A DNA stretch of 25,700 nt from positions 1-25,700 of the IMG/VR virus record IMGVR_UViG_3300012017_000113, one strand, 5' to 3'. A program made the position numbers and the translations under genes. Shown in pieces: positions 3,019 to 25,350 of this stretch. Position 1 is the stretch's first letter; each line of letters opens with the position of its first letter. The notes below the pieces were generated by a model that was not told where the DNA came from, did not search any database, and was given only the letters and a program-made list of their open reading frames with translations. This DNA is from a virus.

Positions 3019-3019
3019 T

Positions 3020-3547
3020 TTAAACGATTGGATTTTCCAATGATGATTTGAGTGCAGTATCTAATGCAGGTATGACGGCAGGATTTAATAACTTTATTCT
3101 TGATTTGATTATATTTTTTCTTTGCTCGTATTCATATACACTTTCAATCTTTCTTTCATTTGTGGATAAATTTGTGTAACTTGCAAGATCGATTTGATGA
3201 TCAAAAATATTATAATATCTATATGATGTTTGTGCTGCGCCAATGCTACCATATTTATCCGCAATGTACTTATCAAATGCTTCAGATGACTTAGGCCAAT
3301 CATCATAGATACTGTAAACATCATTTGTGAGTAAAATAATCCAATCGTAGTATTGATTACCATAAACTTTATATGCAACTTGATCCGGTCTTTCACCATC
3401 ATGTACAATATATGGCGTGTAACTAATATACCTATAAGATTTTATAAACTCTTTAAATCGAATAGATTGAGTTAAATCAATTGCCGTAATTTGATCAAAA
3501 TCATTGACGTTATATTGAATTCTTTGGAAAAGTGTAAAGTATGACAT
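3020..3547 (-). CDS. 53: Baseplate wedge protein gp53-like
   Basis: This 175-residue protein has the typical gp53 layout: N-terminal MSYFTLFQRIQYNV, then a compact region with DGERPDQVAYKVYG and YYDWIILLTNDVY (about residues 50-80). That region marks the LysM-like core of gp53 in T4-like phages. In T4, gp53 joins the wedge arms together around the hub. The length is close to the family's usual ~180-200 residues. It lies between the gp48-like cap gene (3 bases upstream) and the hub gene (1 base downstream), which fits a baseplate operon. No strong Shine-Dalgarno is seen, so translation may be coupled to the gene before it. Confidence 0.85.
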   Translation of the reverse strand: MSYFTLFQRIQYNVNDFDQITAIDLTQSIRFKEFIKSYRYISYTPYIVHDGERPDQVAYKVYGNQYYDWIILLTNDVYSIYDDWPKSSEAFDKYIADKYGSIGAAQTSYRYYNIFDHQIDLASYTNLSTNERKIESVYEYEQRKNIIKSRIKLLNPAVIPALDTALKSSLENPIV

Positions 3548-12248: not shown

Positions 12249-13145
12249 TCAATCTTCTTCTGCTAACTTTTCAAAATAACTCAAGTCTTCATCATCACCA
12301 TCGTCAGCAGCAGTCTTCGTAGCAGGTGCAGCCTTTTGTTGTGCAACTCTTTCAACAACTGGAGATCCACTCGCAATTGCACCAACAGCACCAGCAATTC
12401 CTAGAACGACATTCAAGCGTTCTTTAATTTGGTCATAAGACTTAAAGTTAGTCTTATCCAAGAATTCTGTAAGTTTATATTCAGACTTCCAAATACGCTC
12501 TAAGTCATCGTCATCTTTAGACAATGGACTTGGCTTATCAAATTCTGATTTGTCATAGTTTTGATAACCTTCAACTTTGCGAATTTTCAGTTTAAAGTTA
12601 GCACCTTCCCACAAATCAAATGGATTGATGGGTGACTCATCTTCAAATTCAGGATTCATCAAATCATTTAGTTTATCAAAGATTTTCTTACCAAACTTGA
12701 ACAGACGGACTGTACCATCATTCTCAGGATTAGCAGGATCTTTAACGATATAAATGTTTGCAATGTACTGAAGTTTACGCTTTTGTTTACGTACTACTTC
12801 TTTATTTGCTTCAATGCCAGAGTTCCATAGAATGGTGTTATGTTCACACACTGGGCACTTTTGATTGATGGTTGTCAAGCAGTTATCAATCAACCACTGA
12901 CCAGTAGGACCTTGGATTGAATGAGAAAACATTTGAATCCAGGGCATGTCTTCACCTTCGGGTGAAGGTAGAAAGCGAATTGTTGCCATTCCGTTGCCTG
13001 CTTTGTCAACGGTAGGCTTCCAGAAGCGGTCATCTTCGTATGACTTTTTGCCTTCTTCTTTGTTGCTGAGTTTTGAGAGTTCGCCCGTAAGTTTCTCTAG
13101 GGCTTGTGAGCGTGATTTTTTAAGATCAGCGAATGAATTTGCCAT
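12249..13145 (-). CDS. 32: Single-stranded DNA-binding protein gp32
   Basis: A 298-residue gp32 homologue (T4: 301). The N-terminus has a basic KKSRSQALEKL segment like the cooperative-binding 'LAST' region. The zinc ligands appear as His75, Cys89, Cys97 and Cys100 (SHSIQG...DNCLTT...KCPVC), with the OB-fold aromatic residues around them. The C-terminus is strongly acidic (DDGDDEDLSYFEKLAEED), the docking tail for replication proteins. It follows gp59 and ends at an intrinsic terminator. The leader has four TAATAC repeats around the ribosome-binding site, so translational autoregulation as in T4 is likely. It coats ssDNA during replication, recombination and repair. Confidence 0.96.
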   Translation of the reverse strand: MANSFADLKKSRSQALEKLTGELSKLSNKEEGKKSYEDDRFWKPTVDKAGNGMATIRFLPSPEGEDMPWIQMFSHSIQGPTGQWLIDNCLTTINQKCPVCEHNTILWNSGIEANKEVVRKQKRKLQYIANIYIVKDPANPENDGTVRLFKFGKKIFDKLNDLMNPEFEDESPINPFDLWEGANFKLKIRKVEGYQNYDKSEFDKPSPLSKDDDDLERIWKSEYKLTEFLDKTNFKSYDQIKERLNVVLGIAGAVGAIASGSPVVERVAQQKAAPATKTAADDGDDEDLSYFEKLAEED

Positions 13146-13285: not shown

Positions 13286-13882
13286 TTATTTCTGTACCAA
13301 TTGCCTTAGAACTGACTTCAGTTTTGGTATGTCTACTTTTAAGAAGGGCTGGTATTTTTTGCATAACTTGCTGATATCAATATAGATAGGATCTGATATA
13401 ATTTTGTCTGATTTGTGTATAAAATTTAGTATGTTGTCAAGTATGCATAATGTCTCCAAACTAATTTCTTTTCGCATGTACTTTTGAATGATTTCAGGAT
13501 GATTGCCATCCACTGGAGTAAATAACGCATTAAATTCTTTCGAAGACAAGTCACTTACGAATTCCATTTCATTTTTAAAATGGTAACTCAATGATTCTTG
13601 TCTTCGTTTCCAATTCTTGTAGCGGTCTTCACATTCATCAGACAATAGTTCACCAACCCACATGTTTGTCTGATATAGAAAGTTTGCTACAAGAAAACTT
13701 TCAAGGTATGTATCTTTTCTATTGCCTAATTTGGCAAAAAAGATTTTGTCTTTACGTTTTAGAAATGTATCTAATGATACCTTACTCTTCTTATTGTACT
13801 TAAAATAATCATAAGTATCAAGTGTAAAATGATTTTTAATTGCTAAGTATGTTCGATATGCGTCAATTGCTTCCATTCTCAT
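13286..13882 (-). CDS. 59: Helicase loader gp59-like
   Basis: A 198-residue protein matching T4 gp59 (217 residues), which loads the gp41 helicase onto gp32-coated forks. The N-terminus lines up with T4: AIDAYRTYLAIKNHF, then DYFKYNKKSKVS, then RKDKIFFAKLG, then a helix with LVANFLYQTNMWVGEL. The C-terminal half is helical (ISLETLCILDNILNFI), as in the all-helical gp59 fold. It is directly upstream of gp32, as in T4, and overlaps the end of the acidic ORF by 20 bases. A second ATG at 13876 is a possible start. Replication function is well supported by both the sequence pattern and the neighbourhood. Confidence 0.88.
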   Translation of the reverse strand: MRMEAIDAYRTYLAIKNHFTLDTYDYFKYNKKSKVSLDTFLKRKDKIFFAKLGNRKDTYLESFLVANFLYQTNMWVGELLSDECEDRYKNWKRRQESLSYHFKNEMEFVSDLSSKEFNALFTPVDGNHPEIIQKYMRKEISLETLCILDNILNFIHKSDKIISDPIYIDISKLCKKYQPFLKVDIPKLKSVLRQLVQK

Positions 13883-14282
13883 CGGAGACTTCTTCTATAT
13901 TAAGTGGACCAGTTAATATGGTTTCGGAGTCAGTACATACCCAATTATCACTTTCCAAATCTAACAAACTACCACCTTCAAGAAATTCTTCCATTGCTTC
14001 AATTTCTTCTTCAGTCATACCTTCAAATTCATAGTCAACCCACCAACCATCATCTTCGGATGAATCTTCAACTTCAAATTCATCAAAGACACTGACACCT
14101 TCATCCTCATCATAAGATTCTAACCATTCTTCAATGGTTGTATTTTCAGGTGCGACAACATAGTATTCACCCCATCGCCAACCTAAATTATAAGTTATTT
14201 TTTGACCAGTCTCTAAGTTTTTCCAATACTCAGTCTGTACAATTGACTTTTTATGTTCAGTTGTAATTTTCCATGTAGTCAT
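13863..14282 (-). CDS. Highly acidic protein of unknown function between gp33 and gp59
   Basis: A 139-residue protein I do not recognise. Residues 1-50 look folded, with Trp/Tyr-rich TEYWKNLETGQKITYNLGWR and WGEYYVVAPE. From about residue 50 it is dominated by Asp/Glu (YDEDEGVSVFDEFEVEDSSE, then MTEEEIEAMEEF). It overlaps gp33 by 4 bases (ATGA) and gp59 by 20 bases, so it is co-translated with the replication and late-transcription genes. The acidity could reflect DNA mimicry or docking to basic partners, but nothing in the sequence proves that. Coding status is firm because of the tight overlaps. Confidence 0.75.
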   Translation of the reverse strand: MTTWKITTEHKKSIVQTEYWKNLETGQKITYNLGWRWGEYYVVAPENTTIEEWLESYDEDEGVSVFDEFEVEDSSEDDGWWVDYEFEGMTEEEIEAMEEFLEGGSLLDLESDNWVCTDSETILTGPLNIEEVSDENGSN

Positions 14283-14551
14283 ATTTCATCATCCTCTAGT
14301 GGTAATCTCGCTTTTCTGGTAATCATGTTTGAGTCCATTGCTTCAGTTTCAATCCGACTTTTCATTCGTGGCGAAACTAATGCAGCAGCAGTTTCAATTT
14401 CTATATTCTTTTCTTCACAATATAGAACGATTGCATCTATCATAGTGATAGGATGTTTTTCTCGCATGATACCAGTAATGTGACGTTCAAATTCTTTACT
14501 CGTTAATATATTCAAATTCATATTAGATTCGCATTTTTGTTTTTTGGACAT
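14279..14551 (-). CDS. 33: Late-promoter transcription accessory protein gp33-like
   Basis: A 90-residue protein. Its centre follows T4 gp33 closely: MIDAIVLYCEEKNIEIETAA lines up with the T4 segment YLEATTAFLEENSIPETQFA. This is followed by RIETEAMDSNMI versus the T4 IQSEAIDENLL. T4 gp33 (112 residues) bridges host RNA polymerase beta-flap and the sliding clamp at late promoters. The T4 C-terminal clamp-binding LDFLL is not obvious here; the end reads RLPLEDDEI, so clamp contact may use a variant motif. The start at 14551 overlaps the lysin gene by 29 bases and has a GGGGAAAGG just upstream. A second ATG at 14521 would avoid the overlap but lacks a ribosome-binding site. Confidence 0.85.
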   Translation of the reverse strand: MSKKQKCESNMNLNILTSKEFERHITGIMREKHPITMIDAIVLYCEEKNIEIETAAALVSPRMKSRIETEAMDSNMITRKARLPLEDDEI

Positions 14552-15047
14552 CCTTTCCCCAACGATAGAAAATGTGGTCGCCGATTTGCACGACTTTTGT
14601 TGCGGTCTTAGCCCAAGGTGGTTTCACGTAAGTTGCATGAAAGTGCGTAGCACCTTCTACAACGTCTATCATAATGCCTTTTTTGTATCCTGTCAAGAGA
14701 AATTCTGCAACCTTGTAAGATTGTTTCCACATGTCCATGTTCTTAGGTTTGTGATCCTTTACGATACAATACCAAGAGAACTGACAATCTTGTGTCACAA
14801 TATCTTTAATGTTCTTTGGAAATCTATTTTGCTTGTCGGCTAAGCGATTGAGTACGACCATACCAACTGCTATCTTACCAATTGAAGGCTGATTGCCTGC
14901 TTCATGGTAGATATTGAGTGCCATCCAGTACAAGTCAATTTTGCTTGTATCTTTGCTTTTCAGTAATGATTGTGGATCTAATGCGTATGCTACAGATGCA
15001 AAAAGCAAAGAAAAGAGTAACACTACAACCTTTGAGAAGGTTTTCAT
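14523..15047 (-). CDS. Secreted cell wall hydrolase, SleB-type (Hydrolase_2) endolysin
   Basis: A 174-residue protein with a signal peptide: MKTFSK, a hydrophobic core (VVVLLFSLLFASV), and a likely cleavage after AYA (residue 22). The mature part has the SleB family pattern: WMALNIYHEAGNQP with the likely catalytic Glu49, VGMVVLNRL, a CQFSWYC segment (88-94) and THFHATYVKPPWA. SleB-type enzymes cleave peptidoglycan. An exported lysin does not need a large-hole holin, which matches small holin-like proteins such as the one at 7149-7715. An AAGGAG ribosome-binding site and a candidate late promoter lie upstream. It shares its transcript with gp33, gp59 and gp32. Confidence 0.88.
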   Translation of the reverse strand: MKTFSKVVVLLFSLLFASVAYALDPQSLLKSKDTSKIDLYWMALNIYHEAGNQPSIGKIAVGMVVLNRLADKQNRFPKNIKDIVTQDCQFSWYCIVKDHKPKNMDMWKQSYKVAEFLLTGYKKGIMIDVVEGATHFHATYVKPPWAKTATKVVQIGDHIFYRWGKDVQKTKMRI

Positions 15048-15093: not shown

Positions 15094-15546
15094 CTACACG
15101 ATTTCAGATAGTTTGTCAACATAATCCGAACAGATTGCATAGCATTCTAATTTGGAACACTTTTCTAATACCATAAATTGCTCTGGCATGACGCATACGG
15201 AGGTTTTGGTTAACTTGCTCTTAGGATAAGCCCATATGAAACCATGACTTGTCAGTGTGTATGCATCTTTTTCATGCCAAAAATAATGAAGATTAGTTTT
15301 GGTTAACCACTCCAATGCTTCTATATTCTTCACATGAATCCATAACAATGTAGCATTATCATATAAGAATTCTTCGTCAATCTTGTGTTGTGGTTCATCA
15401 TGCCCTAAGTAGAATTGATCATAGACACGCCATAAATCAATCTCACATTGATAACCAGATTTCATTGCATACCGTATTTGGTCAGGAAAGTTTTCTAATG
15501 TTGAATTTGGTCCATTTACTAGACCTCTATGTGCGATTAGTAGCAT
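15094..15546 (-). CDS. Short glycerophosphodiester phosphodiesterase-like protein
   Basis: The protein is read from the ATG at 15546 (MLLIAHRG), 150 residues. An upstream ATG at 15585 only adds a tail inside the cupin gene. The N-terminus has the GDPD signature: AHRG (His6, Arg7), then TLEN (Glu18), CEIDLW (Glu35, Asp37) and LGHDEP (His49, Asp50). These are the metal and catalytic positions of the family. GDPD enzymes are usually about 240 residues, so this is a shortened barrel. It overlaps the cupin gene by 20 bases and ends the glycan operon. It might remove or add a glycerophosphate-type group on a glycan; substrate is unknown. Confidence 0.7.
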   Translation of the reverse strand: MLLIAHRGLVNGPNSTLENFPDQIRYAMKSGYQCEIDLWRVYDQFYLGHDEPQHKIDEEFLYDNATLLWIHVKNIEALEWLTKTNLHYFWHEKDAYTLTSHGFIWAYPKSKLTKTSVCVMPEQFMVLEKCSKLECYAICSDYVDKLSEIV

Positions 15547-15859
15547 CGTATTTGTCCGTTGGTATGCTTGGCCACCGCACCACAATGAGTTCGGTGTCTT
15601 CCAAGAAGGTTACATTTGAAATTTCATTTGCTTCGTAGATCCACATGTCACCAGTTTTTAGATGTAAACCAGATACATTGAGTTCACCACGAACGATATA
15701 ATTTAACTCCGTTGTAAGTTTATGATAGTGTGAGAATGTAGGATCATTCTTAGGATGTTTATGGTGTGCAATCTCAAAAAGATTTGTTCTATAAATTGAG
15801 TTTTCAAAGTCACCAACAAACCATCCTTTGAAATACTTTTCAATGTTTGAAACAATCAT
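15527..15859 (-). CDS. Single-domain cupin protein
   Basis: A 110-residue cupin. Motif 1 is textbook: His44-Tyr-His46, four residues, Glu51, six residues, Gly58 (SHYHKLTTELNYIVRG), giving a metal site. A second half follows with LKTGDMWIYEANEI. It overlaps the nucleotidyltransferase-isomerase fusion by 4 bases (ATGA) and the GDPD-like gene by 20. Small cupins in glycan clusters are often sugar isomerases, epimerases or binding proteins. Which applies here cannot be decided from the sequence, but the position points to nucleotide-sugar or sugar-phosphate processing. Confidence 0.75.
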   Translation of the reverse strand: MIVSNIEKYFKGWFVGDFENSIYRTNLFEIAHHKHPKNDPTFSHYHKLTTELNYIVRGELNVSGLHLKTGDMWIYEANEISNVTFLEDTELIVVRWPSIPTDKYDATNRT

Positions 15860-17022
15860 TCTAATTCCTGTATGCGAGTCTGATGTCTACCACCATCAAA
15901 CGTATGCTTGATTGCAAGATACATCAAATCAGCAAGCCAGTCTTTAGATGTTGCTAACTTAGCAGGTATCGCAAAGAAGTTAGCACAGTTATGGCGAATG
16001 GCCATTTCCATTGCGTTCTCATCATAGATAAGTGCAGACCGAATACCTTTAAATTTATTAGCACACATGTTGACGCCTTGACCAGTTCTACAGAAACCAA
16101 AAGCAAATTCACAGTCACCATCTTGAATTGCTTTTGCTGCTTGACCAATATAATCTTTATAATTGCAATCACGATTCACAAAGGTGCCAAAGTCAATCCA
16201 CTTCATATGAAAGTATTCAGTTAGTACAAACTTAAACATTTCTTTTTCAGCAAATCCAGAATGATCCGAACACAGTGCTATTGGCTTTGTTGTATTGCCC
16301 AAGTTCTTGATTGCATTGTTTTTGTAAAACCTATACTCTTCAGGTGTACCAAATACATGCATCTTTTGAACTGGATAAGATACAATCTTTAAACCGTTCT
16401 GAATAAGAAGATTGTACAGTGGTGCAATATAGAATTCGTTGTTTGTCCGAATGTCTTTTTCTATCATCTCTTTAGCATACTTAACGAACGTTGCACCATT
16501 TCTAAATCCATAAATGCCTACACATGCATCGCCACTAATTGCTTTCTTTTCAGCAGTCTCAATCACACGACCACCGATATCTTTAGCATAGCTGTAGTTT
16601 GCACTATTTGATTTGAATGTCAGAATCATACCATCTGCATCCCACTTTAACATATCGTAGGGATCATATTGTGGTGCAAATTCTATATCAAGTGTATGAA
16701 TGATAAGTGGATCAGGATTGTCAATGAATTTCTCAGCATACAAGCAACTCTCAACTGAACCTCTTGTTAGATGATCCAAAACAATGACTTGACAATCCTC
16801 ACCAAACTTCTTCTTTAGAATTTCATCCATGCGGAAGTTGTAGACATGCTCATCACGAATGATAAAGATTAGATTACAATCATCAGTCTTCAAACATGAT
16901 AACGAAATGTCAATTAAATGTTTGTCATGAATATTGATAAGCTGTTTTGGTACAGTAAAGCCTTCTTTTTGAAAGCGACTGCCCAAACCAGCCATCGGCA
17001 CAAGTATATTAGGTTTTCCCAT
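15856..17022 (-). CDS. Fusion: sugar nucleotidyltransferase + RpiB/LacAB-type sugar-phosphate isomerase
   Basis: A 388-residue two-domain protein. Residues 1-242 are a sugar-phosphate nucleotidyltransferase: PMAGLGSRF (9-17) with VPKQL following, TRGSVESCLYAE (86-97), an acidic LDIEF site (111-115), and FGTPEEYRFYKNN at the domain end. Residues 246-388 are a complete RpiB: CSDHSGFAEKEMF (251-263), the active-site CRTGQG (Cys311), NMCANKFKGIRSALIYDENA, RHNCAN (His344), and the C-terminal GGRHQTRIQELE that closely follows E. coli RpiB. Isomerase and activating enzyme in one chain suggest that the first and last steps of one pathway are coupled. It overlaps PfkB by 14 bases and cupin by 4. Nucleotide and sugar specificity are not visible. 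Confidence 0.88.
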   Translation of the reverse strand: MGKPNILVPMAGLGSRFQKEGFTVPKQLINIHDKHLIDISLSCLKTDDCNLIFIIRDEHVYNFRMDEILKKKFGEDCQVIVLDHLTRGSVESCLYAEKFIDNPDPLIIHTLDIEFAPQYDPYDMLKWDADGMILTFKSNSANYSYAKDIGGRVIETAEKKAISGDACVGIYGFRNGATFVKYAKEMIEKDIRTNNEFYIAPLYNLLIQNGLKIVSYPVQKMHVFGTPEEYRFYKNNAIKNLGNTTKPIALCSDHSGFAEKEMFKFVLTEYFHMKWIDFGTFVNRDCNYKDYIGQAAKAIQDGDCEFAFGFCRTGQGVNMCANKFKGIRSALIYDENAMEMAIRHNCANFFAIPAKLATSKDWLADLMYLAIKHTFDGGRHQTRIQELE

Positions 17023-17662
17023 AACTATCTTTCAAAAATTTTGTAGTTTCTCTATGTGCATCTCGCAAACACTTTTCAGGTAAATGATTCTTATGTAGAC
17101 CTAACATAAAACGTGCAGCAAAATAATCACCAGCACCTAACACATTTAATCCTTCAATATAATCGCTAGTACACTCATATTTGGTATGATAAAAATAACT
17201 TCTTCTAGGCGAATGAACAACAATGATACCTCTAATTCTATCAGGAGTTTTGATCAATCTCAAGTCTTCTTCAGAAACAAAAAGATAATCAATCATGTCC
17301 AATAATTCATCGTCTAATGGTTCACCTGTGCATATGTCAGCACAAACGATGCCTTCTAAATGCCGAATAAAGAATGTTTCTTCTAACTCGTTTATGTATG
17401 CGATATGATTGACTCTTGCTTGAATGATTGTTGGTAATATGGTAGATGCGTTTAAATCAGAATCACTATATCGTTCAGATTTTTCTCTATCAATTGTGAT
17501 AGTAGAATAACCAATAGCAGTTGGTGAAACATGAATGTCTGCTTTAGAATTTAAATGCTTCAATGCTCTCCATACATTTGCAATACCACCTGTGTTATAG
17601 TACGTGTTAACATCTAGTACAGTATCAAATACTAAATGTCCATAAAGACCAAAGTCTCTCAA
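17009..17662 (-). CDS. PfkB/ribokinase-family sugar kinase, compact
   Basis: A 217-residue kinase, shorter than the usual ~300. It has the N-terminal strand FGLYGHLVFDTVLDV, the GGIANVWRAL substrate motif (25-34) and the C-terminal anion-hole motif GLNVLGAGDYFAARFM with GAGD at 176-179 (catalytic Asp179). It starts at TTG (17662), with AAAGGA 6 bases upstream and a TTGA overlap with the phosphatase stop; no ATG is available. Members phosphorylate sugars or sugar phosphates, as the HldE kinase domain does in the heptose pathway. Its neighbours (KdsC-like phosphatase before, nucleotidyltransferase-isomerase after) suggest it makes a sugar bisphosphate intermediate. The lid region seems reduced. 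Confidence 0.82.
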   Translation of the reverse strand: MRDFGLYGHLVFDTVLDVNTYYNTGGIANVWRALKHLNSKADIHVSPTAIGYSTITIDREKSERYSDSDLNASTILPTIIQARVNHIAYINELEETFFIRHLEGIVCADICTGEPLDDELLDMIDYLFVSEEDLRLIKTPDRIRGIIVVHSPRRSYFYHTKYECTSDYIEGLNVLGAGDYFAARFMLGLHKNHLPEKCLRDAHRETTKFLKDSYGKT

Positions 17663-18195
17663 AATTTTTCCTTTACATCAATTTCATAAACTTTTTCTAG
17701 ATGGTCATGAAAAGAGTATTCAGGCAGTTTGCCTGCTAAGTCTAACCGTTCAAATAATTCCATGATTAGATTTTCACCACCCTTACCACTTAGATGCTGT
17801 GATATCGCTTTTACACAACTTGGAGAATCACTTGGACAGAATGCATAACCTACAGCAGCAAGAAGTCTTACATCAAAGATATCATCACCAACATATACAA
17901 TATTGATAGGCTCTACCGAATATTCATCACACAAATTTGGTAGCATATGGATTTTATCTGTGTGGTGTGTGTCTGAACGATTCACATAAACATCTATGTT
18001 TCTTCTCATTGCAACATCAACATTAAATGCATCACCAGTGAGAAACACTACAGGTAAACCTAATGCTTTGAATCGCTTGATTGCTGTCCAATCTTTATCA
18101 CAAAACTTTTTATATCGCACTCTACCTTCTTTGTCATAATATTTACGACCATCAGTCATAACACCATCAACATCAAGTACAATTAATTTAATCAT
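17659..18195 (-). CDS. KdsC-like HAD phosphatase
   Basis: A 178-residue protein when read from the ATG at 18195, preferred because GGAG lies 5 bases upstream and the previous stop is 1 base away. An ORF extended to 18225 would run into the WavE-like gene. HAD motif I is LDVDGVMTDG (Asp8, Asp10), motif II is FLTGD, motif IV is VYVGDDIFD, and the C-terminal LSGKGGENLIMEL parallels the GGxGAVRE end of KdsC tetramers. KdsC removes the phosphate from KDO-8-phosphate. Relatives act in other acidic or heptose-like sugar pathways. No KdsA-type aldolase is in the window, so here it more likely dephosphorylates a sugar bisphosphate between kinase and nucleotidyltransferase. Confidence 0.85.
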   Translation of the reverse strand: MIKLIVLDVDGVMTDGRKYYDKEGRVRYKKFCDKDWTAIKRFKALGLPVVFLTGDAFNVDVAMRRNIDVYVNRSDTHHTDKIHMLPNLCDEYSVEPINIVYVGDDIFDVRLLAAVGYAFCPSDSPSCVKAISQHLSGKGGENLIMELFERLDLAGKLPEYSFHDHLEKVYEIDVKEKF

Positions 18196-18196
18196 G

Positions 18197-18919
18197 CTAA
18201 CTCCAATATTCAGTATAAGACTCACCGATATGATAGTGGTATTCTTGTAGACCGTGTTTTGGCCAAGACATGCTCACTTTAGGAAATGGTACAAAAACTT
18301 TATCACGAATTGCAAAGTCTTTAGACAATGCTTCATTTAATTTAGGTGCAGCATCAACTGTATACGTCAACGGATTATCTATATGCACTTTAATTGATGG
18401 ATCAAATCTTGCATAATAAAATTGACCTATGTAAGTTTCAGCCCTTGTCTTGTATGTATAGTTTTGTTCAAAATTAGGATTCATATCAAAAGGTATATCA
18501 AAAACTTTCTTCACATCTTCAGTTCTACCCCAAAACACATGATCCCTTGGATGATATGGAAATGCTCTATACATACCCATTACAAAAATTCTACCATCCT
18601 GCATTCTTTCAGCAGCAAACTTGTGCATCATTTCCATGCTATGAAGACGTATGAATTGGTCTGTACGCATTTTAGCACAGAATTCTGAATCTATAACATT
18701 CAAGCCATTTCTGCTTGTGTTGATTTGAAGATTGCGATTACCTGTGCCACGAGGATGCACTACATCATTAAACACTACATGAACATTAGATGGATGTTTA
18801 ATATCATTATGATATGTGGATAAAATAATCTTGTCAACGAAACTTAATGTTGCATACTGTTCTATAATTGCTAACGTGAATGGATTACACTCACCTTGCA
18901 GCATTAATGATATTTTCAT
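18197..18919 (-). CDS. WavE-like lipopolysaccharide synthesis protein
   Basis: A 240-residue protein. The segment GNRNLQINTSRNGLNVID (about 60-77), then CAKMRTDQFIRL, matches the WavE pattern: NxQIxSSxxGL, then (V/A)KxRxD. The second half has DHVFWGRTEDVKKVFDIPFD and a pattern of aromatic residues typical of GT-A-like synthesis proteins. WavE proteins belong to Vibrio LPS core loci and many capsule clusters, and are probably glycosyltransferases. The gene overlaps the preceding glycosyltransferase by 29 bases and is followed after 1 base by the phosphatase. Acceptor and donor are unknown. Confidence 0.72.
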   Translation of the reverse strand: MKISLMLQGECNPFTLAIIEQYATLSFVDKIILSTYHNDIKHPSNVHVVFNDVVHPRGTGNRNLQINTSRNGLNVIDSEFCAKMRTDQFIRLHSMEMMHKFAAERMQDGRIFVMGMYRAFPYHPRDHVFWGRTEDVKKVFDIPFDMNPNFEQNYTYKTRAETYIGQFYYARFDPSIKVHIDNPLTYTVDAAPKLNEALSKDFAIRDKVFVPFPKVSMSWPKHGLQEYHYHIGESYTEYWS

Positions 18920-19829
18920 ATCGCTCTACTAATGTCTTTGGATTCCATTCATCGTAAAATTCTTGAAGTGGTTCTATACCGGCATCAATGATAGATTGTA
19001 TTGACACTCTATCCAAATTGTTATATGGTTTACGTACATGTGAAAGAAGAATATCACTGTTCACACCAAATGGTTTCTTAGATGCTAACGCTTTGTCTAT
19101 AGACGCACTGACACCAGGAACTTGTGATGCGCTATTGTAAACATAAAGATTGATGTCATTACCATTCAACCATTTAACTAAATCTTTTCTATTGAAAAAA
19201 TCTCTGCATACACGAACATCAACATTACTCTTTGCAATCGATCTACATGATGCGATTAAATTGTTTGTCAATGCGCCAGATGGATCAATATATTGACCAT
19301 CAATGATATGCAAATTAAAAATTACATCGTTAGTAAATTGTTCATTGATGATTTCAATGATACGATCAATATTCTTTGTTCTATTTGCAAGACCACTAGT
19401 GCCAATTTTTACAACATCACTCGGCGGTGAGTATGTAACGTCATCATAGTAGATGACTGGTGGTATTGCAGCATAACTTGTTCCGTGTGGTATAAATCTT
19501 GGATCAGTATGAACATATGCATCAACACCAACATATTGGTTGATATGTTCATGACCAGTAATCATAATTTGTTTAATGCCCAATTCATTTCTAACTGGTC
19601 TAGTGAAGCCTGAATCTAACCAACCCAAAGTCCAAGGATGATGATTATAAATGATTGCTGCCGGCATTTCATTTGCGATTCTATCTCTCGCAAACATTCT
19701 ATCATCGGTCGGTACCAATTCAAATACATACTCTGAACTTGCTTCATTGAATGCATCAACTAATGATGCTCCATACTGATAGATGCCGCAGTTTTGCTCT
19801 GGACCAGTAAACACTAAAACTTTCTTCAT
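18891..19829 (-). CDS. GT-B-type glycosyltransferase (GT1/GT4-like)
   Basis: A 312-residue protein beginning MKKVLVFTGPEQNCGIYQYG, the usual first strand and glycine loop of GT4-like enzymes. Middle features are MITGHEHINQYVGVDAYVHT and a donor domain entry VKIGTSGLANRTKNIDRIIE (about 140-160), where GT4 proteins begin their C-terminal Rossmann domain. Later YVYNSASQVPGVSASIDKAL corresponds to the donor-binding region with an E/D-x7-E-like position occupied by other residues. It overlaps both neighbours (4 and 29 bases) in the glycan operon. It likely transfers a sugar to a growing glycan; specificity is not deducible. Confidence 0.72.
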   Translation of the reverse strand: MKKVLVFTGPEQNCGIYQYGASLVDAFNEASSEYVFELVPTDDRMFARDRIANEMPAAIIYNHHPWTLGWLDSGFTRPVRNELGIKQIMITGHEHINQYVGVDAYVHTDPRFIPHGTSYAAIPPVIYYDDVTYSPPSDVVKIGTSGLANRTKNIDRIIEIINEQFTNDVIFNLHIIDGQYIDPSGALTNNLIASCRSIAKSNVDVRVCRDFFNRKDLVKWLNGNDINLYVYNSASQVPGVSASIDKALASKKPFGVNSDILLSHVRKPYNNLDRVSIQSIIDAGIEPLQEFYDEWNPKTLVERYENIINAAR

Positions 19830-20749
19830 GGATATACCTGCATAATTTTCTTCCTTACATTCTCTCGTGGACTATCAAGTGTTTCAATAGTGTTGATTAT
19901 AATTTGTATAGCTTCGTCGTCATCTGTCGTATCGCTGAATAGATGTGTTGCATGATATTCACCTTCGCCAGCTAAACAATGTTTCATGTTTTTACTGAAG
20001 CATAGAAATGTTTGGTCAGGATTTGAATTGTTCAAGAAATTGTGTGCGAATGTAAACGGCCCACTGTTCTTACCGATAATAAGTTTTGAAAAGTTGCTCA
20101 TATATGATATGTGCGGTAAATTGCCTGTAGGTCCACCGAACAAATCATCCGTATAGAATACGTTTTTCTTTTCTAAATTCAACTTATCGCATACAAGAAA
20201 GTTATAATCTGGATAATCATTTGATACCAAATCAATGATTCGGCGCATGTTGCCCATATCACTCTGTTCACTCTGTTGTTTGCCGTTACATATTAGAACG
20301 AATGGTTTGTCCTCATGCTCATCTAACCATTTTGTAGCAGGCTTTAGATTGAAGTGATCCAAATCCAATTGTGGTAGAAACTCATAGTAATCTATTGGTG
20401 GTTCAAGATTCAACATTCTATAGATATCACACCATGCTTTATAAACTGTTATAAAGTTGGCGTGATCTTTTTCGCCCATATGGATACCAATCCAACAACC
20501 AATCCATGTATTTACATAAAGTGTATCATTAGGATTAGCAAATTTGTGCCAGAATGTTAAACCTGCAGGCACATCTGCGATGGTTAGTTTTTTGCATGGT
20601 AAATCTTGAGTAATACTTTCATGATTATTATGTGCGTAATAGAAATCACGTTCTTTATATAATTTACTACAGATATCACGAACATAAGTTCTATTCAAAA
20701 AAGTATCACCGTTTCTCCAGTGATTGAAGAATACTAGTTTTCGTTTCAT
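19826..20749 (-). CDS. Glycosyltransferase-like protein, resembling GT9 heptosyltransferases in its C-terminal half
   Basis: Read from the ATG at 20749 this is 307 residues (MKRKLVFFNHWRNGDTFLNR), with an ATGA overlap with the methyltransferase gene. A start 27 bases upstream is possible but lies inside that gene. The N-terminal FFNHWRNGDTFLNR and the C-terminal KLIIGKNSGPFTFAHNFLN (about 225-245) follow the GT9 layout, in which a GxSGxxHxA loop binds the nucleotide sugar. Here His is replaced (SGPFTFA). The middle has PFVLICNGKQQSEQSDMGNM, the entry to the second Rossmann domain. The family is a best guess; a glycan role is supported by the neighbours. Confidence 0.6.
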   Translation of the reverse strand: MKRKLVFFNHWRNGDTFLNRTYVRDICSKLYKERDFYYAHNNHESITQDLPCKKLTIADVPAGLTFWHKFANPNDTLYVNTWIGCWIGIHMGEKDHANFITVYKAWCDIYRMLNLEPPIDYYEFLPQLDLDHFNLKPATKWLDEHEDKPFVLICNGKQQSEQSDMGNMRRIIDLVSNDYPDYNFLVCDKLNLEKKNVFYTDDLFGGPTGNLPHISYMSNFSKLIIGKNSGPFTFAHNFLNNSNPDQTFLCFSKNMKHCLAGEGEYHATHLFSDTTDDDEAIQIIINTIETLDSPRENVRKKIMQVYP

Positions 20750-21966
20750 GCTGAGTAAACTTTCACATTGGGACAAGGCACAATCATTTTACCACCAGCT
20801 TTGAGATAGTCTTGCTCACGCATAAGAAACTCATCAATGAAGTGCCAAGGTAGAACAAGAAGATAATCAGGCTTTGCTGCTCGCATTTCTTCTTCACTCA
20901 CGATAGGAATATGAGTGCCGATTGTTTTCAAACCGAATTTATACGGACTACGTTCAGCGATTGCGGTAATGTGATTCGCATTCAAATCAAAGAATTGTAA
21001 CAGTGTATTACCCTTTGTGCTTGCACCGTAACCATAAATTGTTTTACCTTCCGCTTTGATATTATGAATGAGTTCAGTTAATTCCTTTTTCATTTGTTTC
21101 AAGCGTCTTTCAAAATTATCCCATACACTAAACTTTCGAATGTTAACCACATTCTGTTCGTATGCAAGAATGCTTGCAACTCTAGTTTCACATACATCAC
21201 GAAGAGGTGCTGATCCAAACTTTGCAGGATTTGCATCACGTTTTCTGAAATAGATTCTAAAACTACCACCATTGGTATCATTCAAAGAACAATCAACGCA
21301 ATTGAATCCAATGCGAGAAAACAATCCTATGAGTGATGTTAAATCATAATAGTATACATGCTCATGGCAAATGTTATCAAATGCCATTTGCTTAATCATA
21401 AGCGGTGTATAACTCATCTGAAGAACAACGACACCATCATCATCCAAAATATCATACATGCTTTGAACAAATGGTCTTGGATCATCTAAATCATAGAACA
21501 TTGCAATGCATGTAATGACTTTTGCTTTTCTATGCGCTACAGTTGTTTTGTTCCATGCATCTTTAGAGAAATAGTCTTGAATGATTTCACCATGTTTAGA
21601 AGATTCCGCTAAGTAAGTGTTATCGCAAGGATCAATACCAACACGCTTTACATACGGTGGCACATAACTCAAAAGTGTACCATCATTACATGCAATGTCT
21701 AACCAGATGTCATCTTTCTCTGGTTGAATTCTCGGCAAAATTTCGCCTACGATTCTGTTTAACTCTGCTTTCATACTTGCATTGATGCCACTTCTATACC
21801 AATACTGACCCCACATAGAATCAGCAGGTGCTAAGCCATGCAGTCTTGCAGCACCCAATTCATCATCCGACCATACATCTAAACTGTACTTATTACGCTT
21901 TGCTGTATCCTCTTCACCCTTTACAAAGTCACTTACATAATGGTCACCTAAACTCACAAGTTTCAT
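20746..21966 (-). CDS. SAM-dependent sugar C-methyltransferase-like protein
   Basis: A 406-residue protein with the methyltransferase core WLDIACNDGTLLSYVPPYV (SAM glycine-rich loop, about 108-127), FYDLDDPRPFVQSMYDIL and NICHEHVYYYDLTSL, and the C-terminal domain marked by IYGYGASTKGNTLLQFF (about 318-334). That domain pair is typical of NovU/TylC3-type enzymes that put a methyl group on a carbon of keto-deoxysugar nucleotides. The N-terminal zinc-binding part of that family (four cysteines) is missing or replaced by a Cys-free ~60-residue segment. An AAGGAA ribosome-binding site precedes the ATG. With Gmd in the same operon, a GDP-keto-deoxyhexose is a plausible substrate. Confidence 0.78.
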   Translation of the reverse strand: MKLVSLGDHYVSDFVKGEEDTAKRNKYSLDVWSDDELGAARLHGLAPADSMWGQYWYRSGINASMKAELNRIVGEILPRIQPEKDDIWLDIACNDGTLLSYVPPYVKRVGIDPCDNTYLAESSKHGEIIQDYFSKDAWNKTTVAHRKAKVITCIAMFYDLDDPRPFVQSMYDILDDDGVVVLQMSYTPLMIKQMAFDNICHEHVYYYDLTSLIGLFSRIGFNCVDCSLNDTNGGSFRIYFRKRDANPAKFGSAPLRDVCETRVASILAYEQNVVNIRKFSVWDNFERRLKQMKKELTELIHNIKAEGKTIYGYGASTKGNTLLQFFDLNANHITAIAERSPYKFGLKTIGTHIPIVSEEEMRAAKPDYLLVLPWHFIDEFLMREQDYLKAGGKMIVPCPNVKVYSA

Positions 21967-21967
21967 A

Positions 21968-22348
21968 TCAGTATTCCTTATAAGATTTTTCTTCTATAAT
22001 TTTTGATCCATACTTAAGATTGATTTCTTTTTTGATTGCTGCTCGTTTGTCGTTAGTTTTATAAACATTTCGTGCAAGTCTTATAAAATGTAAATCAAAC
22101 TTTTCGGTACGCTCACATTCACGAATATCATTCTCAATAATCCATAGTTGCATATTTACGATATAAAGATTTGTGAAATATGGTGCAACTGAATATGCAA
22201 TGTCTCTATATTCTGGTAGATTTGATAACAAGTCCCATTCTCGCTTTACATTTCCCCATTTTTCTGGATCTTCTATCTCTTGTAATTTTATCTGAAGAAT
22301 AGTGAGTTTGTCAATCAATTCTCCTATGCTGATAGGAACGTTAACCAT
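21968..22348 (-). CDS. DUF6165 family protein
   Basis: A 126-residue protein with the DUF6165 pattern: [19 protein letters not shown] at the start, then [54 protein letters not shown], and EEKSYKEY at the end. The family sits in LPS and capsule clusters next to glycosyltransferases, but its molecular role is not known to me. It is helical, with no signal peptide or membrane segment, so it is cytoplasmic. It overlaps Gmd by 8 bases and is 1 base from the methyltransferase, so translation is probably coupled. Confidence 0.82.
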
Positions 22349-23345
22349 TTTTTAATTGCTCCATTACCATTTCTTTAACTAAAGCATCAAACGAATATTC
22401 TGGTTTCCAATTTAGAACTGATCTTGCTTTCAACGAATTGCCGAGTAACGTATTAACTTCAGCGGGTCTGTAGAATTTCTCGGACACTTCAAAGATAACA
22501 TTACCTGTAATCGGATCAATAGCCTTTTCTGATGTACCAACACCTGACCATTCAAGTGTTCTACCTAACGCCCTAGTTGCAGCATTACAAAAGTCTCTCA
22601 CGCTATGTTGTTCACCAGTTGCTATAACATAATCGTCTGCTTTGTTTTGCTGAAGCATGAGCCACATAGCATAGACAAAATCTTTTGCATGACCCCAATC
22701 TCTACGTGCATCTAGATTTCCTAGTTGCACAGGACCTGCGCCATTAATTGCTTTAACTAAACCTTTTGTAATCTTTCTTGTAACAAATTCTTCACCTCTT
22801 CGTGGGCTTTCATGATTGAATAAAATACCATTACATGCGAAAAGATTATAACTTTCACGATAGTTGACTGTGATCCAATAACCATAGAGTTTTGCTACTG
22901 CATACGGGCTGCGTGGATAAAATGGTGTCAATTCTGTTTGTGGAATTTGTTGGACTTTACCAAAGAGTTCGCTTGTTGATGCTTGATAGAATTTACATGA
23001 TTGCTCTTTAGCAAGTTTTCTCACTGCTTCAAGCATATGTAATACACCAACTGCGTTGGCGTCAGCAGTATATGCAGGTGAAACAAAACTGACCGAAACG
23101 TGTGATTGTGCGCCTAGATTGTAGACTTCGTTTGGTTTAATGTCCATGATGATATTATGGACGTTAGATGCATCAGCCAAATCACCGTAGTGTAGATTCA
23201 ACCGATGTTTGATGTGTTCTATATTTTGAAAGTTATAAGTGCTAGTACGGCGTATGAGCCCGTGTACTTCATAACCTTTTTCTAAAAGAAGTTCAGCAAG
23301 ATATGAACCGTCTTGACCTGTAATACCAGTAATAAATGCTTTCAT
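22341..23345 (-). CDS. gmd: GDP-mannose 4,6-dehydratase
   Basis: A 334-residue short-chain dehydrogenase from the ATG at 23345 (an in-frame TTG 3 bases earlier is less likely), with GAGG 8 bases upstream. The NADP-binding [21 protein letters not shown] is at residues 7-27 (GxxGxxG at 7-13). [39 protein letters not shown] (catalytic Tyr and Lys) and [15 protein letters not shown] are all hallmarks of Gmd. It converts GDP-mannose to GDP-4-keto-6-deoxymannose, the precursor of GDP-fucose, GDP-rhamnose and GDP-perosamine. No fucose synthase, Rmd or Per lies in the window, so the next step is by the methyltransferase, a gene elsewhere, or the host. It heads the glycan operon. Confidence 0.96.
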
Positions 23346-23362
23346 CAATTCATCCTCTGAAA

Positions 23363-23401: not shown

Positions 23402-23947
23402 TCAATAGGCTAAACGTAGACCTACACCAACTGCCTTTTCTGTAATGTCTTGGTAAGACCGACTTGCAGATACACTCACACTTGCAGCCTTTGTCACTGG
23501 CATACTCACGCCAAGAAATGCTACAGTTTGTTTAGGATTATCTTTATCCCAATTAACTCGTGTTTTAGCGCCAGCAAAACCCCAAGCTGGTCCTAAAGGC
23601 ATACCAGTTGATGCGCCAACAAGCCCATAAGTAAAGTCTCCGTTTACTTTACCATTGAATCCGTTGTCGTAACCAACACCAAGATATGTATTCACACCTT
23701 TAATCAAGTCTTTGCCGGCAGTGACTTCTACACTGTTCAGCATACCACCTTTATCAAATACAGCAGTGCGAACCTGTACACCTAAGTTCATACCAGCCAT
23801 ATCTTTACCTGCACGGAAATACTGTGCAGTGCTATTTGCTCTATTTGTTGTATCTTTTACTTGGTCAACATCAAAGCTGACATAGTTTGCAGCATTTGCA
23901 GAGCCAAAAGCTAATGTTAAACATAATGCAATGAAAGTTTTTTTCAT
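23402..23947 (-). CDS. Small outer-membrane beta-barrel-like protein with signal peptide
   Basis: Read from the ATG at 23947 (181 residues), chosen because AGGAG lies just upstream; an upstream in-frame ATG at 23971 falls in the terminator hairpin region. The signal peptide is MKKTFIALCLTLAFGSANA, with cleavage likely after ANA (about residue 19). The mature part alternates polar and hydrophobic residues in strand-like pieces rich in Gly and Asn (VNTYLGVGYDNGFNGKVNGD, KAASVSVSASRSYQDI). It ends VGVGLRLAY, the aromatic-terminal strand pattern of outer-membrane barrels. About eight strands fit its length. Phage-encoded barrels can change host surface properties or block superinfection, but its role here is unknown. 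It is boxed by two related hairpins. Confidence 0.75.
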   Translation of the reverse strand: MKKTFIALCLTLAFGSANAANYVSFDVDQVKDTTNRANSTAQYFRAGKDMAGMNLGVQVRTAVFDKGGMLNSVEVTAGKDLIKGVNTYLGVGYDNGFNGKVNGDFTYGLVGASTGMPLGPAWGFAGAKTRVNWDKDNPKQTVAFLGVSMPVTKAASVSVSASRSYQDITEKAVGVGLRLAY

Positions 23948-23972
23948 ACAATCTCCTGTGTTATTAAACAAA

Positions 23973-24004
23973 GTCGGTTGATTCTGTTGATAAGTTCAAC
24001 CGAC
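23973..24004 (-). terminator. Hairpin after the tmRNA coding piece, likely terminator
   Basis: A 9-bp perfect stem GTCGGTTGA / TCAACCGAC (24004-23996 with 23981-23973) has a 14-base loop and is followed on the minus strand by TTTGTTTAAT. The loop contains TATCAAC, which could alternatively pair with GTTGA of the 5' arm, so two structures are possible. It marks the 3' limit of the tmRNA transcript and leaves only 25 bases before the beta-barrel start. Confidence 0.7.
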
Positions 24005-24144
24005 AAAACTCCGCACTAGAGTTTAAGCTGCTAGTGCAAAACGCTCATCGTTTGCTGCGTTTATTTTGGTGCTTGATTTACGGTCATCGCCTACCGAATT
24101 GTCCACTCTCATACTCTTTGCCCCGTCGAAACCTGTTCATCCCC
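24005..24144 (-). other. tmRNA coding piece (tag reading frame)
   Basis: Mature 5' end at G24144, set by pairing with the acceptor strand. The tag codons lie at 24058-24026 with stop TAA at 24025-24023. If the resume codon is the second GCA the encoded tag is ANDERFALAA. The ending ALAA is the ClpXP/ClpAP degron type. The 3' end is uncertain and is placed at the terminator hairpin. Confidence 0.75.
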
Positions 24145-24226
24145 ATCAGAAGCAGCTCAGTTTGGATTCGAACCTTGTTCTAGTCTTGTCGATCTGCGCT
24201 TCCCACAGTGCTGACCGAACTGCTTT

Positions 24227-24279
24227 TGGTGGAGATGGGCGGAATCGAACCGCCGTCCGAAACATGTTTCTGTTCGCTT
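24227..24279 (-). other. tmRNA acceptor piece (T-arm and CCA end)
   Basis: It holds the T-arm (24254-24238), the 7-base acceptor strand (24237-24231) and encoded ACCA (24230-24227). A short palindrome GAAACATGTTTC (24270-24259) precedes TTTCGGAC. Its 5' end is not defined by sequence; I place it where the 8-bp tandem repeat stops. Confidence 0.65.
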
Positions 24280-24319
24280 CATACAATCATACAATCATAC
24301 AATCATACAATCATATAAT
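24280..24319 (-). repeat. 8-bp tandem repeat upstream of the tmRNA
   Basis: On the plus strand CATACAAT is repeated four times exactly (24280-24311), followed by one copy with a single change, CATATAAT (24312-24319). On the minus strand this is ATTGTATG repeated directly before the tmRNA acceptor piece, between it and a possible -10 box. It would be in the transcript's 5' leader. Confidence 0.9.
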
Positions 24320-24328: not shown

Positions 24329-24679
24329 TCACACTTCCACAAATTGTTCAAGTGCTGGTGCTTTCCAATTCTTAGGTTTCATCACTTTGCCATCTGAATT
24401 TTTTAGAACGTATCCTGTGTCAGGATCAATCTTATCCAAGTTGCTTCTTGCAACTTCTTCCCATGCCCGTTCTACATTCCAACCTTTCATATGACAATAA
24501 CCAATAATTACCCAAATCATATCCATGCAAGCGTCCAACTTCTCAGCATCATTTTTTGAATCTATGTACTCGCCGAATTCTTCATGAATTAATTTATCAT
24601 ACAGTTCTATATTTGATGGTGTGCGTAACTGCTCACACGCTTGAATAAACCTAACCACATCGTGCACCATTTTACTCAT
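24329..24679 (-). CDS. MazG-like/all-alpha NTP pyrophosphohydrolase
   Basis: A 116-residue helical protein with the all-alpha NTP-PPase signature: KLIHEEFGEYIDS (Glu33, Glu34, Glu37) and, one helix later, LDACMDMIWVIIGY (Asp49, Asp53). These acidic residues bind magnesium. The tail GYVLKNSDGKVMKPKNWKAP is typical of the phage PRA-PH-like version. Such enzymes hydrolyse non-canonical NTPs or may lower alarmone levels, as proposed for MazG in cyanophages. AAGGAG precedes the ATG, and the start overlaps the exonuclease stop by 4 bases, so the two are co-translated. Substrate is unknown. Confidence 0.82.
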   Translation of the reverse strand: MSKMVHDVVRFIQACEQLRTPSNIELYDKLIHEEFGEYIDSKNDAEKLDACMDMIWVIIGYCHMKGWNVERAWEEVARSNLDKIDPDTGYVLKNSDGKVMKPKNWKAPALEQFVEV

Positions 24680-25350
24680 GCATTCTCCTTATCGAATTGC
24701 CTACGGTACTCACGGAATAATTCTATGTAATCGTTCCGCTTCTTAATAAAGACTTGTGGCATGTCATTCTCTACTGCAATGACAATCGCAAGTCTTGAAA
24801 CTGGTATTCTTGTGCGTTCTTCATACATTACAGCGTATGCAGCACATTGCATAAAGTAATTGGTAATCCATTCTTCTTGCTTTGGTTTACTTGATGTTTT
24901 AAAATCTATAATTGATAACTTACCGTCAAATTCTCCAATGCAGTCTACACGCCCTGCAACTCGGAGATGGTGTGAGTAGAGTGGTATTTCAATTGCATGG
25001 ATGTTATTAATGCGTTCATCAAGGATTGGTTGGACAGTCTTGAACATTGCGACCGAAGTTGGCATATGTCCTTCAGCCCAATCCACTTGGTTGTTTAGGT
25101 AGTTCTCACAAAGCGTATGGATTCTCGTACCACGCCTTGCTGCTTTCGTTGAAATGCGGTTTGCTTCTTCTTCACCAACACGCCTACGCCATTCAAGAAT
25201 GCCTTCTTTACCATGCATTCCTGTAATTGTTGTAACCGACGGATAGGCTTCTCCGTCTGGTGTTAGATAGAATCGTTTACCATTGATTGTTTTCGTTTGT
25301 AGATCGTAATCAATATCAACCCCTACATGATTAAAGATAACTTGTCTCAT
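24676..25350 (-). CDS. PD-(D/E)XK exonuclease (RecB/Cas4/MGME1-like)
   Basis: A 224-residue nuclease. The motif order fits RecB-family enzymes: GTRIHTLCENYL with His78, AGRVDCIGEF with Asp136, LSIIDFKTSSK with Asp149-x-Lys151, and MQCAAYAVMYEE (QxxxY, Gln168-Tyr172). N-terminal PSVTTIT is the substrate-gripping segment seen in MGME1-like phage exonucleases. No cysteine cluster of the Cas4 kind is present. It likely trims single-stranded DNA in phage recombination or replication. It starts on the stop of the preceding gene (TAATG) and overlaps the MazG-like gene (ATGA), forming a nucleotide/DNA metabolism mini-operon. Confidence 0.88.
   Translation of the reverse strand: MRQVIFNHVGVDIDYDLQTKTINGKRFYLTPDGEAYPSVTTITGMHGKEGILEWRRRVGEEEANRISTKAARRGTRIHTLCENYLNNQVDWAEGHMPTSVAMFKTVQPILDERINNIHAIEIPLYSHHLRVAGRVDCIGEFDGKLSIIDFKTSSKPKQEEWITNYFMQCAAYAVMYEERTRIPVSRLAIVIAVENDMPQVFIKKRNDYIELFREYRRQFDKENA

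Follow-up and report, generated by a model that had tools for sequence, protein, structure and literature searches.

A circularly permuted tmRNA gene in a conserved slot of T4-like aquatic phages, with apparent exchange of its acceptor and intervening segment and putative protein genes in the intervening segments of its relatives

Phage tmRNAs have hitherto been read as host relics. Of 133 distinct phage tmRNAs, 53 are two-piece structures, and 50 of these come from marine or aquatic phages (PMC9004378). The accessible text of the tmRNA database paper counts 79 distinct phage sequences, describes the permuted-tmRNA model RF04321 and gives one intervening segment (IVS) that contains a tRNA-Ala gene and another that contains a repetitive element, with no mention of protein genes in IVSs (PMC11915505). 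In this study an entire IMG/VR virus record (25,700 bases), referred to as the window, is compared with these systems. A preliminary description of the window had named phage Melnitz as a precedent for a phage-borne permuted tmRNA, and this precedent is borne out (PMC9004378). Melnitz EXVC044M (MZ577097; PMC9004378) resembles the window in having a permuted tmRNA with an exonuclease gene upstream and gp33-gp59-gp32 downstream. Like several other relatives, it has an unannotated ORF in its IVS (142 nt). It differs in that its best cell-wall-hydrolase match lies upstream and in that alpha_tmRNA is its best-scoring older model (106.7 bits, tag ANDNYVPVDYALAA), whereas the window is beta-type. In Melnitz a glutamine riboswitch also lies beside the tmRNA, but Rfam finds none at the window.

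The permuted ssrA genes of betaproteobacteria (RF01850; Rhodocyclaceae and relatives) share with the window the gene order, an IVS closing stem, the G3-U70 pair and an ANDERFALAA-like tag, but their IVSs are 3-48 nt long, their RF01850 scores are higher and they form a separate branch. Two further systems are described in the accessible text of the database paper. The permuted tmRNA of GCA-2688965 has extra IVS content in common with the phages; there it is an intact tRNA-Ala gene, whereas the phage relatives of the window have protein genes and the window has only a T-arm-like motif (PMC11915505). The tmRNA group I introns with homing endonuclease genes likewise nest a protein gene in a tmRNA gene, but these introns are self-splicing and located in the T-loop, whereas the phage ORFs are located in the IVS of permuted genes (PMC11915505).

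It was confirmed that positions 24288-24023 of the window (minus strand) encode a circularly permuted, beta-type tmRNA (Table 1). The covariance-model scan proposed in the preliminary description matches both permuted models above their gathering scores: RF04321 with 133.5 bits (gathering score 47, E 2.4e-26, 24288-24023, model positions 1-213 complete) and RF01850, beta_tmRNA, with 118.3 bits (gathering score 84, E 8.6e-36, 24353-23988). ARAGORN calls the locus tmRNA* (permuted). The circular permutation, the two-piece layout and the phage origin claimed in that description are supported. It had placed the gene at 24005-24279, which is the correct locus, but the extent is slightly short on the 5' side relative to the Rfam spans. 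On the minus strand the order is 3' half, IVS and 5' half. The acceptor strands CATCTCC and GGGGATG of the two halves form 7 of 7 pairs including G3-U70, as had been described, and the CCA is encoded. The processing sites predicted earlier, A24227 and G24144, fit this layout of acceptor, CCA and IVS. On the minus strand, neither a sigma-70-like promoter nor a simple terminator was detected next to the tmRNA.

Table 1. Features of the tmRNA gene and its genomic slot in the window
Feature	Position	Strand	Basis or remark
PD-(D/E)XK exonuclease, upstream slot boundary	24676..25350	-	PF12705 E 1.5e-8, phrog_298 E 6e-84, synteny
MazG-like nucleotide pyrophosphohydrolase, between exonuclease and tmRNA	24329..24679	-	PF01503 E 2.3e-6, phrog_671 E 7.3e-29
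tmRNA 3' piece (transcribed first)	24227..24288	-	RF04321 alignment from 24288, a putative start of the mature piece
T-arm GGCGG-TTCGATT-CCGCC	24254-24238	-	in tmRNA 3' piece
Acceptor 3' strand CATCTCC	24237-24231	-	in tmRNA 3' piece
A73	24230	-	
Encoded CCA	24229-24227	-	
Intervening segment (IVS), 82 nt, predicted to be excised from the precursor	24145..24226	-	
tmRNA 5' piece up to tag stop	24023..24144	-	RF04321/RF01850 alignment; piece extends to about 23973
Acceptor 5' strand GGGGATG	24144-24138	-	start of 5' piece
TTTCGACGGGG	24131-24121	-	in 5' piece, after GGGGATG; mRNA-like domain in same piece
Tag reading frame AANDERFALAA and stop TAA (24025-24023)	24058-24023	-	RF01850 alignment (AUAAAC GCA GCA AAC GAU), ARAGORN
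Terminal helix GTCGGTTG / CAACCGAC, then TTTGTTT	23973..24004	-	end of mRNA-like domain, near last RF01850 helix
Probable exported, outer-membrane-like protein, directly downstream of tmRNA	23402..23971	-	signal-peptide-like start only
Cell-wall hydrolase, downstream side of slot	14523..15047	-	PF07486 E 1.6e-22, synteny
gp33-like late transcription coactivator	14279..14551	-	phrog_254 E 2.1e-15, synteny
gp59-like helicase loader	13286..13882	-	phrog_269 E 3.6e-59, synteny
gp32-like ssDNA-binding protein	12249..13145	-	phrog_224 E 1.5e-113

The tag AANDERFALAA also stands as first read, with the codons GCA GCA AAC GAT GAG CGT TTT GCA CTA GCA GCT TAA. A longer tag reported by ARAGORN, DDRKSSTKINAANDERFALAA, is not favoured because AUAAAC immediately precedes the first GCA, an arrangement also seen in the RF01850 alignment. 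Among the readable tags 117 of 118 end in L/I/M/V/F-A-A (87 of them in ALAA), the final AA having been demanded by the tag-reading script, and they are otherwise variable. Unusually long tags, ANANTKDVVKVSMGRGFRFARGTEAVAA and AEKADTFDFTAMSFTGNTVTGSSKIAFAA, occur in the phage permuted tmRNAs L015, L022, L020 and L021. A permuted ssrA from a bacterial genome (L175, G254:C1:892359-892683) has a 5-nt IVS and a 28-residue ARAGORN tag without an AA end (GNQPSNLQVMQQFDVPTPANGDQYLNVA).

The acceptor stem was compared across 90 distinct phage cassettes, each comprising the acceptor strands and the IVS. The pairs G1-C72, G2-C71, G3-U70 and G7-C66 are invariant and pairs 4-6 vary by compensation: pair 4 is G-C in 54 and C-G in 36, pair 5 is C-G in 38, A-U in 30, G-C in 20 and U-A in 2, and pair 6 is mostly U-A with some C-G, U-G and A-U. 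The lack of mispairs is partly built in because the acceptor finder required at least 6-7 pairs; the compensating changes and the invariant G-U remain informative despite this threshold. Rfam, which was run without the finder, confirmed a tmRNA in all 26 records scanned. Additionally, nearly every IVS of ordinary length has a closing stem in a single register, starting at IVS nucleotide 1 and leaving 4 nt (usually UGAU) before G1. A closing stem of at least 8 bp is present in 94% of phage IVSs versus 11% of shuffles, and in 64% of bacterial IVSs versus 19% of shuffles. In the window it pairs 24226-24214 with 24161-24149 (13 positions) and is followed by TGAT before G1, and the stretch from T-arm to acceptor folds into the closing-stem shape at -47.1 kcal/mol (z -2.7). 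This stem would hold the acceptor strands together in the precursor, with the CCA and the RNase P site presented in an internal loop.

The window tmRNA occupies a conserved slot of T4-like aquatic phages that extends from the exonuclease to gp33-gp59-gp32. The one-strand order exonuclease, tmRNA, cell-wall hydrolase, gp33, gp59, gp32 recurs in many sufficiently long IMG/VR contigs. When 80 loci were fetched by the exonuclease alone, ARAGORN called a permuted tmRNA in 46, and in at least 37 the acceptor finder placed a permuted tmRNA with a 7-bp acceptor and G3-U70. The slot is empty in the Synechococcus phages ACG-2014d and S-CREM1, where the exonuclease and gp33 genes overlap with no tmRNA between them, and in phage C48C1 the gene order after the exonuclease differs. 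The outer-membrane-like protein encoded directly downstream of the window tmRNA has no Pfam or PHROG match and is 80% identical in L003, L004, L013 and L024. Between its gene and the cell-wall hydrolase the window has an 8-kb sugar/surface-glycan block (15094-23348) that includes GDP-mannose 4,6-dehydratase, a C-methyltransferase, a HAD hydrolase, a ribose/galactose isomerase-domain protein and others. The hydrolase is far from the tmRNA in the window because this cargo block intervenes; in relatives it is located much nearer.

Comparison of the window with its relatives shows that the acceptor strands and the IVS are swapped between phages as one cassette. The nearest relative is L213, a 113.7-kb contig with 98% identity in the exonuclease and 95% DNA identity over 1.4 kb upstream. 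Both tmRNA halves of L213 are 95-99% identical to those of the window, whereas acceptor plus IVS is 24% identical; the L213 acceptor, GGGCCTG/CAGGTCC, differs by two doubly compensated pairs and its IVS is 181 nt long. The reverse is observed with L003, where acceptor plus IVS is 98% identical (98 of 100 positions) and flank and tag are 38-45% identical (upstream flank 38%, tag region 43%). Likewise, L213 and L371 share 89% in acceptor plus IVS, 67-78% in the halves and 30% in the flank, and L268 and L270 share 31% in acceptor plus IVS and 94-100% elsewhere. In the tree of mature sequences the nearest neighbours of the window are L213, followed by L352, L262 and L372, and all four have GGGCCTG acceptors. 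These comparisons suggest that the window probably received the GGGGATG/CATCTCC cassette with its 82-nt IVS from an L003-like phage in place of a GGGCCTG-type cassette. Because both acceptor strands flank the IVS in the permuted order, the cassette is self-consistent and a swap preserves the pairing. We infer homologous recombination as the means of exchange. The tag and the downstream parts are exchanged likewise: L002, L008 and L017 have 97-100% in common over the 3' half, acceptor plus IVS and 5' core, and their tags and ends differ.

No notable ORF is present in the window's own IVS of 82 nt. A T-arm-like GGTTCGAATCC within this segment is possibly a tRNA remnant. This motif, together with the two changes in 82 nt relative to L003 that leave the closing stem intact, would fit an IVS that is itself a functional tRNA-derived small RNA, which would explain its 98% conservation in L003. 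We regard this as unlikely, since the T-stem has only 2 bp, tRNA-family models give no match with E values of up to 10 allowed, ARAGORN makes no call at its normal threshold, and recent transfer of the cassette explains the L003 identity equally well. A tRNA in this IVS, named only by a relaxed ARAGORN run, was rejected as it has no model match. The IVS fragment, used as a search pattern, retrieved real relatives and two unrelated GC-rich contigs. A different IVS, in L009 (between 7385 and 7488, minus strand), also has a T-arm-like motif (GGGTTCGAGTCCC), and tRNA-like pieces may be recurrent in IVSs.

The preliminary description took the gene as a possible record of host lineage or host switching. 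According to this explanation the tmRNA is a recent acquisition from a betaproteobacterial host whose ssrA is two-piece; RF01850 is a betaproteobacterial model, the bacterial gene L173 has the identical GGGGATG/CATCTCC acceptor, and ANDERFALAA occurs in the permuted bacterial ssrA genes L161, L168 and L169. The wider comparison speaks against it, and we consider it very improbable. RF01850 is above cut-off in 13 of 300 sampled genomes (the order around Thauera, 104-331 bits), and bacterial permuted ssrA genes score 157-331 bits (one at 104) versus 118 for the window. Their IVSs are 3-48 nt long, whereas those of the phages are mostly 53-194 nt. In the tree, which was built from the mature sequence minus acceptor and IVS and is to be read as a short alignment with rough bootstrap, the window falls in a phage-only group with L213, L352, L262 and L372, and the 27 bacterial permuted ssrA rows, apparently related to those of the phages and sampled from one order plus chance matches, form nearly one group apart from it (two label changes versus 24.8 in shuffles). 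Melnitz, L153, L029 and L030 are long branches, and no claim is made on their placement. A search of bacterial genomes found none with exactly the GGGGATG/CATCTCC acceptor, ACCA and a 40-70-nt IVS. The broad pattern GGGGRTG..GGTTTCGAC was set aside, its matches being mostly in other bacterial phyla and presumably one-piece genes.

The host can be read neither from the model nor from the tag. The tag ANDERFALAA does not identify a two-piece host because the one-piece Burkholderiales tmRNAs L176, L177 and L179 also have it, and beta-type permuted tmRNAs, mostly unannotated, are also found in Stenotrophomonas and Pseudomonas phages. The hosts of these phages are known to use one-piece ssrA, as seen here for a Xanthomonas relative. 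The Stenotrophomonas/Pseudomonas phage records L028, L029 and L030 (KU682439, OR529408, KU245542) match RF04321, L028 and L030 match RF01850 as well, and none of the three has a tmRNA annotation. Megablast of the phage collection found no direct DNA relatives of the window; matches there were limited to short tmRNA stretches of Stenotrophomonas and Pseudomonas phages and of one other phage record.

In contrast to the window, several relatives have an ORF within the IVS: L213 (67 aa), L249 (52 aa), L286 (71 aa, from ATG), L270 (58 aa) and L272 (39 aa). An equally long ORF is present in 0.2-4.4% of IVS shuffles for L208, L286, L249, L213 and L270; the L272 ORF alone is not significant because 35% of shuffles give an equal length. 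Several further long IVSs have no ORF. In Melnitz (L208:46077-46218) the unannotated IVS ORF is about 54 aa from its ATG and runs into the 5' half. The IVSs of L226 and L260 encode a PF09791 domain above the Pfam cut-off (E 2.8e-12 and 2.2e-9). A search with these ORFs found 64 loci; a PF09791 ORF lies between both permuted tmRNA halves in 43 contigs and in 23 distinct flanking-half contexts, and in L374-L419 (e.g., L374:3001-3180) the embedded ORF is always accompanied by the acceptor GGGCCTG/CAGGTCC. In all 14 loci scanned to test this placement, the tmRNA was independently confirmed by Rfam. The in-frame pN/pS of the PF09791 ORF, counted pairwise and ignoring relatedness, is 0.18 (17 distinct sequences) and 0.20 (12 sequences), with third-position changes predominating, whereas the other frames have values of 1.0-1.5 and contain stop codons. 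Between L213 and L371 the IVS ORF has 11 synonymous and 3 non-synonymous changes (pN/pS 0.06). These substitution patterns indicate that small protein genes in the IVSs of relatives are under coding constraint, that is, purifying selection.

The candidate start of the PF09791 ORF is an ATG in the 3' half in 42 of 43 contigs (ACG in L391), without an evident Shine-Dalgarno sequence; the same ATG is present in 44 of 82 tmRNAs without an embedded ORF. In other loci the PF09791 gene stands alone (L420-L427, L436) or immediately precedes the tmRNA (L431, L432). In L431 and L432, around 3001-3210, the upstream PF09791 frame continues into the tmRNA 3' half and the IVS is only 55 nt. No PF09791 IVS ORF was found in isolated phages, and no homing-endonuclease family matched the IVS ORFs. 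We judge it likely, on balance, that in a large group of aquatic T4-like phages the IVS serves as an exchangeable cargo bay in which acceptor and IVS form one self-pairing unit, the IVS houses selected protein genes such as PF09791, and the precursor would give rise to both a two-piece tmRNA and an mRNA.

The gene has an intact tRNA-like domain, G3-U70 and an ALAA-ended tag, and a permuted tmRNA is retained in many phages. We infer processing, charging and tagging as follows. Host RNase P would cut before G24144 and host 3' processing would form the CCA end at A24227, removing the IVS, with the two pieces remaining paired via the acceptor stem. Host AlaRS would charge the RNA through G3-U70, and the tmRNA would then act on stalled ribosomes together with SmpB and EF-Tu of the host. 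In this way ribosomes stalled on broken mRNA during infection could be rescued, and addition of AANDERFALAA would direct the tagged chains to ClpXP-type proteolysis. Ribosome recycling and protein tagging, the roles proposed in the preliminary description, are plausible. SmpB was found in none of nine phage records, including complete Melnitz, with the window covering a 25.7-kb fragment of its phage, and is presumed to be supplied by the host.

An RNA that has lost trans-translation and instead inhibits host tmRNA, serves as its decoy or forms a leader of the downstream genes has some precedent. According to the accessible text of the database paper, the tag-less phage tmRNA of DS6A is reported to inhibit endogenous tmRNA (PMC11915505), and in Melnitz a riboswitch adjoins the tmRNA. 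Such a role is hard to reconcile with an LAA-type tag frame, G3-U70 and mRNA-like domain kept in nearly all relatives, and we give it little credence. We are confident, short of certainty, that the window carries a functional permuted tmRNA of a T4-like phage in a conserved slot, with an exchangeable acceptor and IVS and with small protein genes in the IVSs of its relatives.

The window tmRNA alone adds one member to the published phage permuted tmRNAs and is itself without an IVS protein gene. Exchange of the acceptor and IVS as a cassette, with a protein-coding IVS, is a variant for which no description was found in the literature searched; likewise no report of protein genes in permuted-tmRNA IVSs was found, in a search that lay mostly outside subscription journals, so that their absence from the literature is unproven. 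For annotation, the IVS ORFs and many phage permuted tmRNAs are currently unannotated. The IVS genes raise the question of whether the precursor is translated before, after or instead of processing. The phage tmRNAs studied here have the appearance of a phage lineage that is stable, occupies a fixed slot and has exchanged parts. If the proposed arrangement is true, the IVS protein genes would be a new way for a coding gene to be nested within the gene of a structured RNA.
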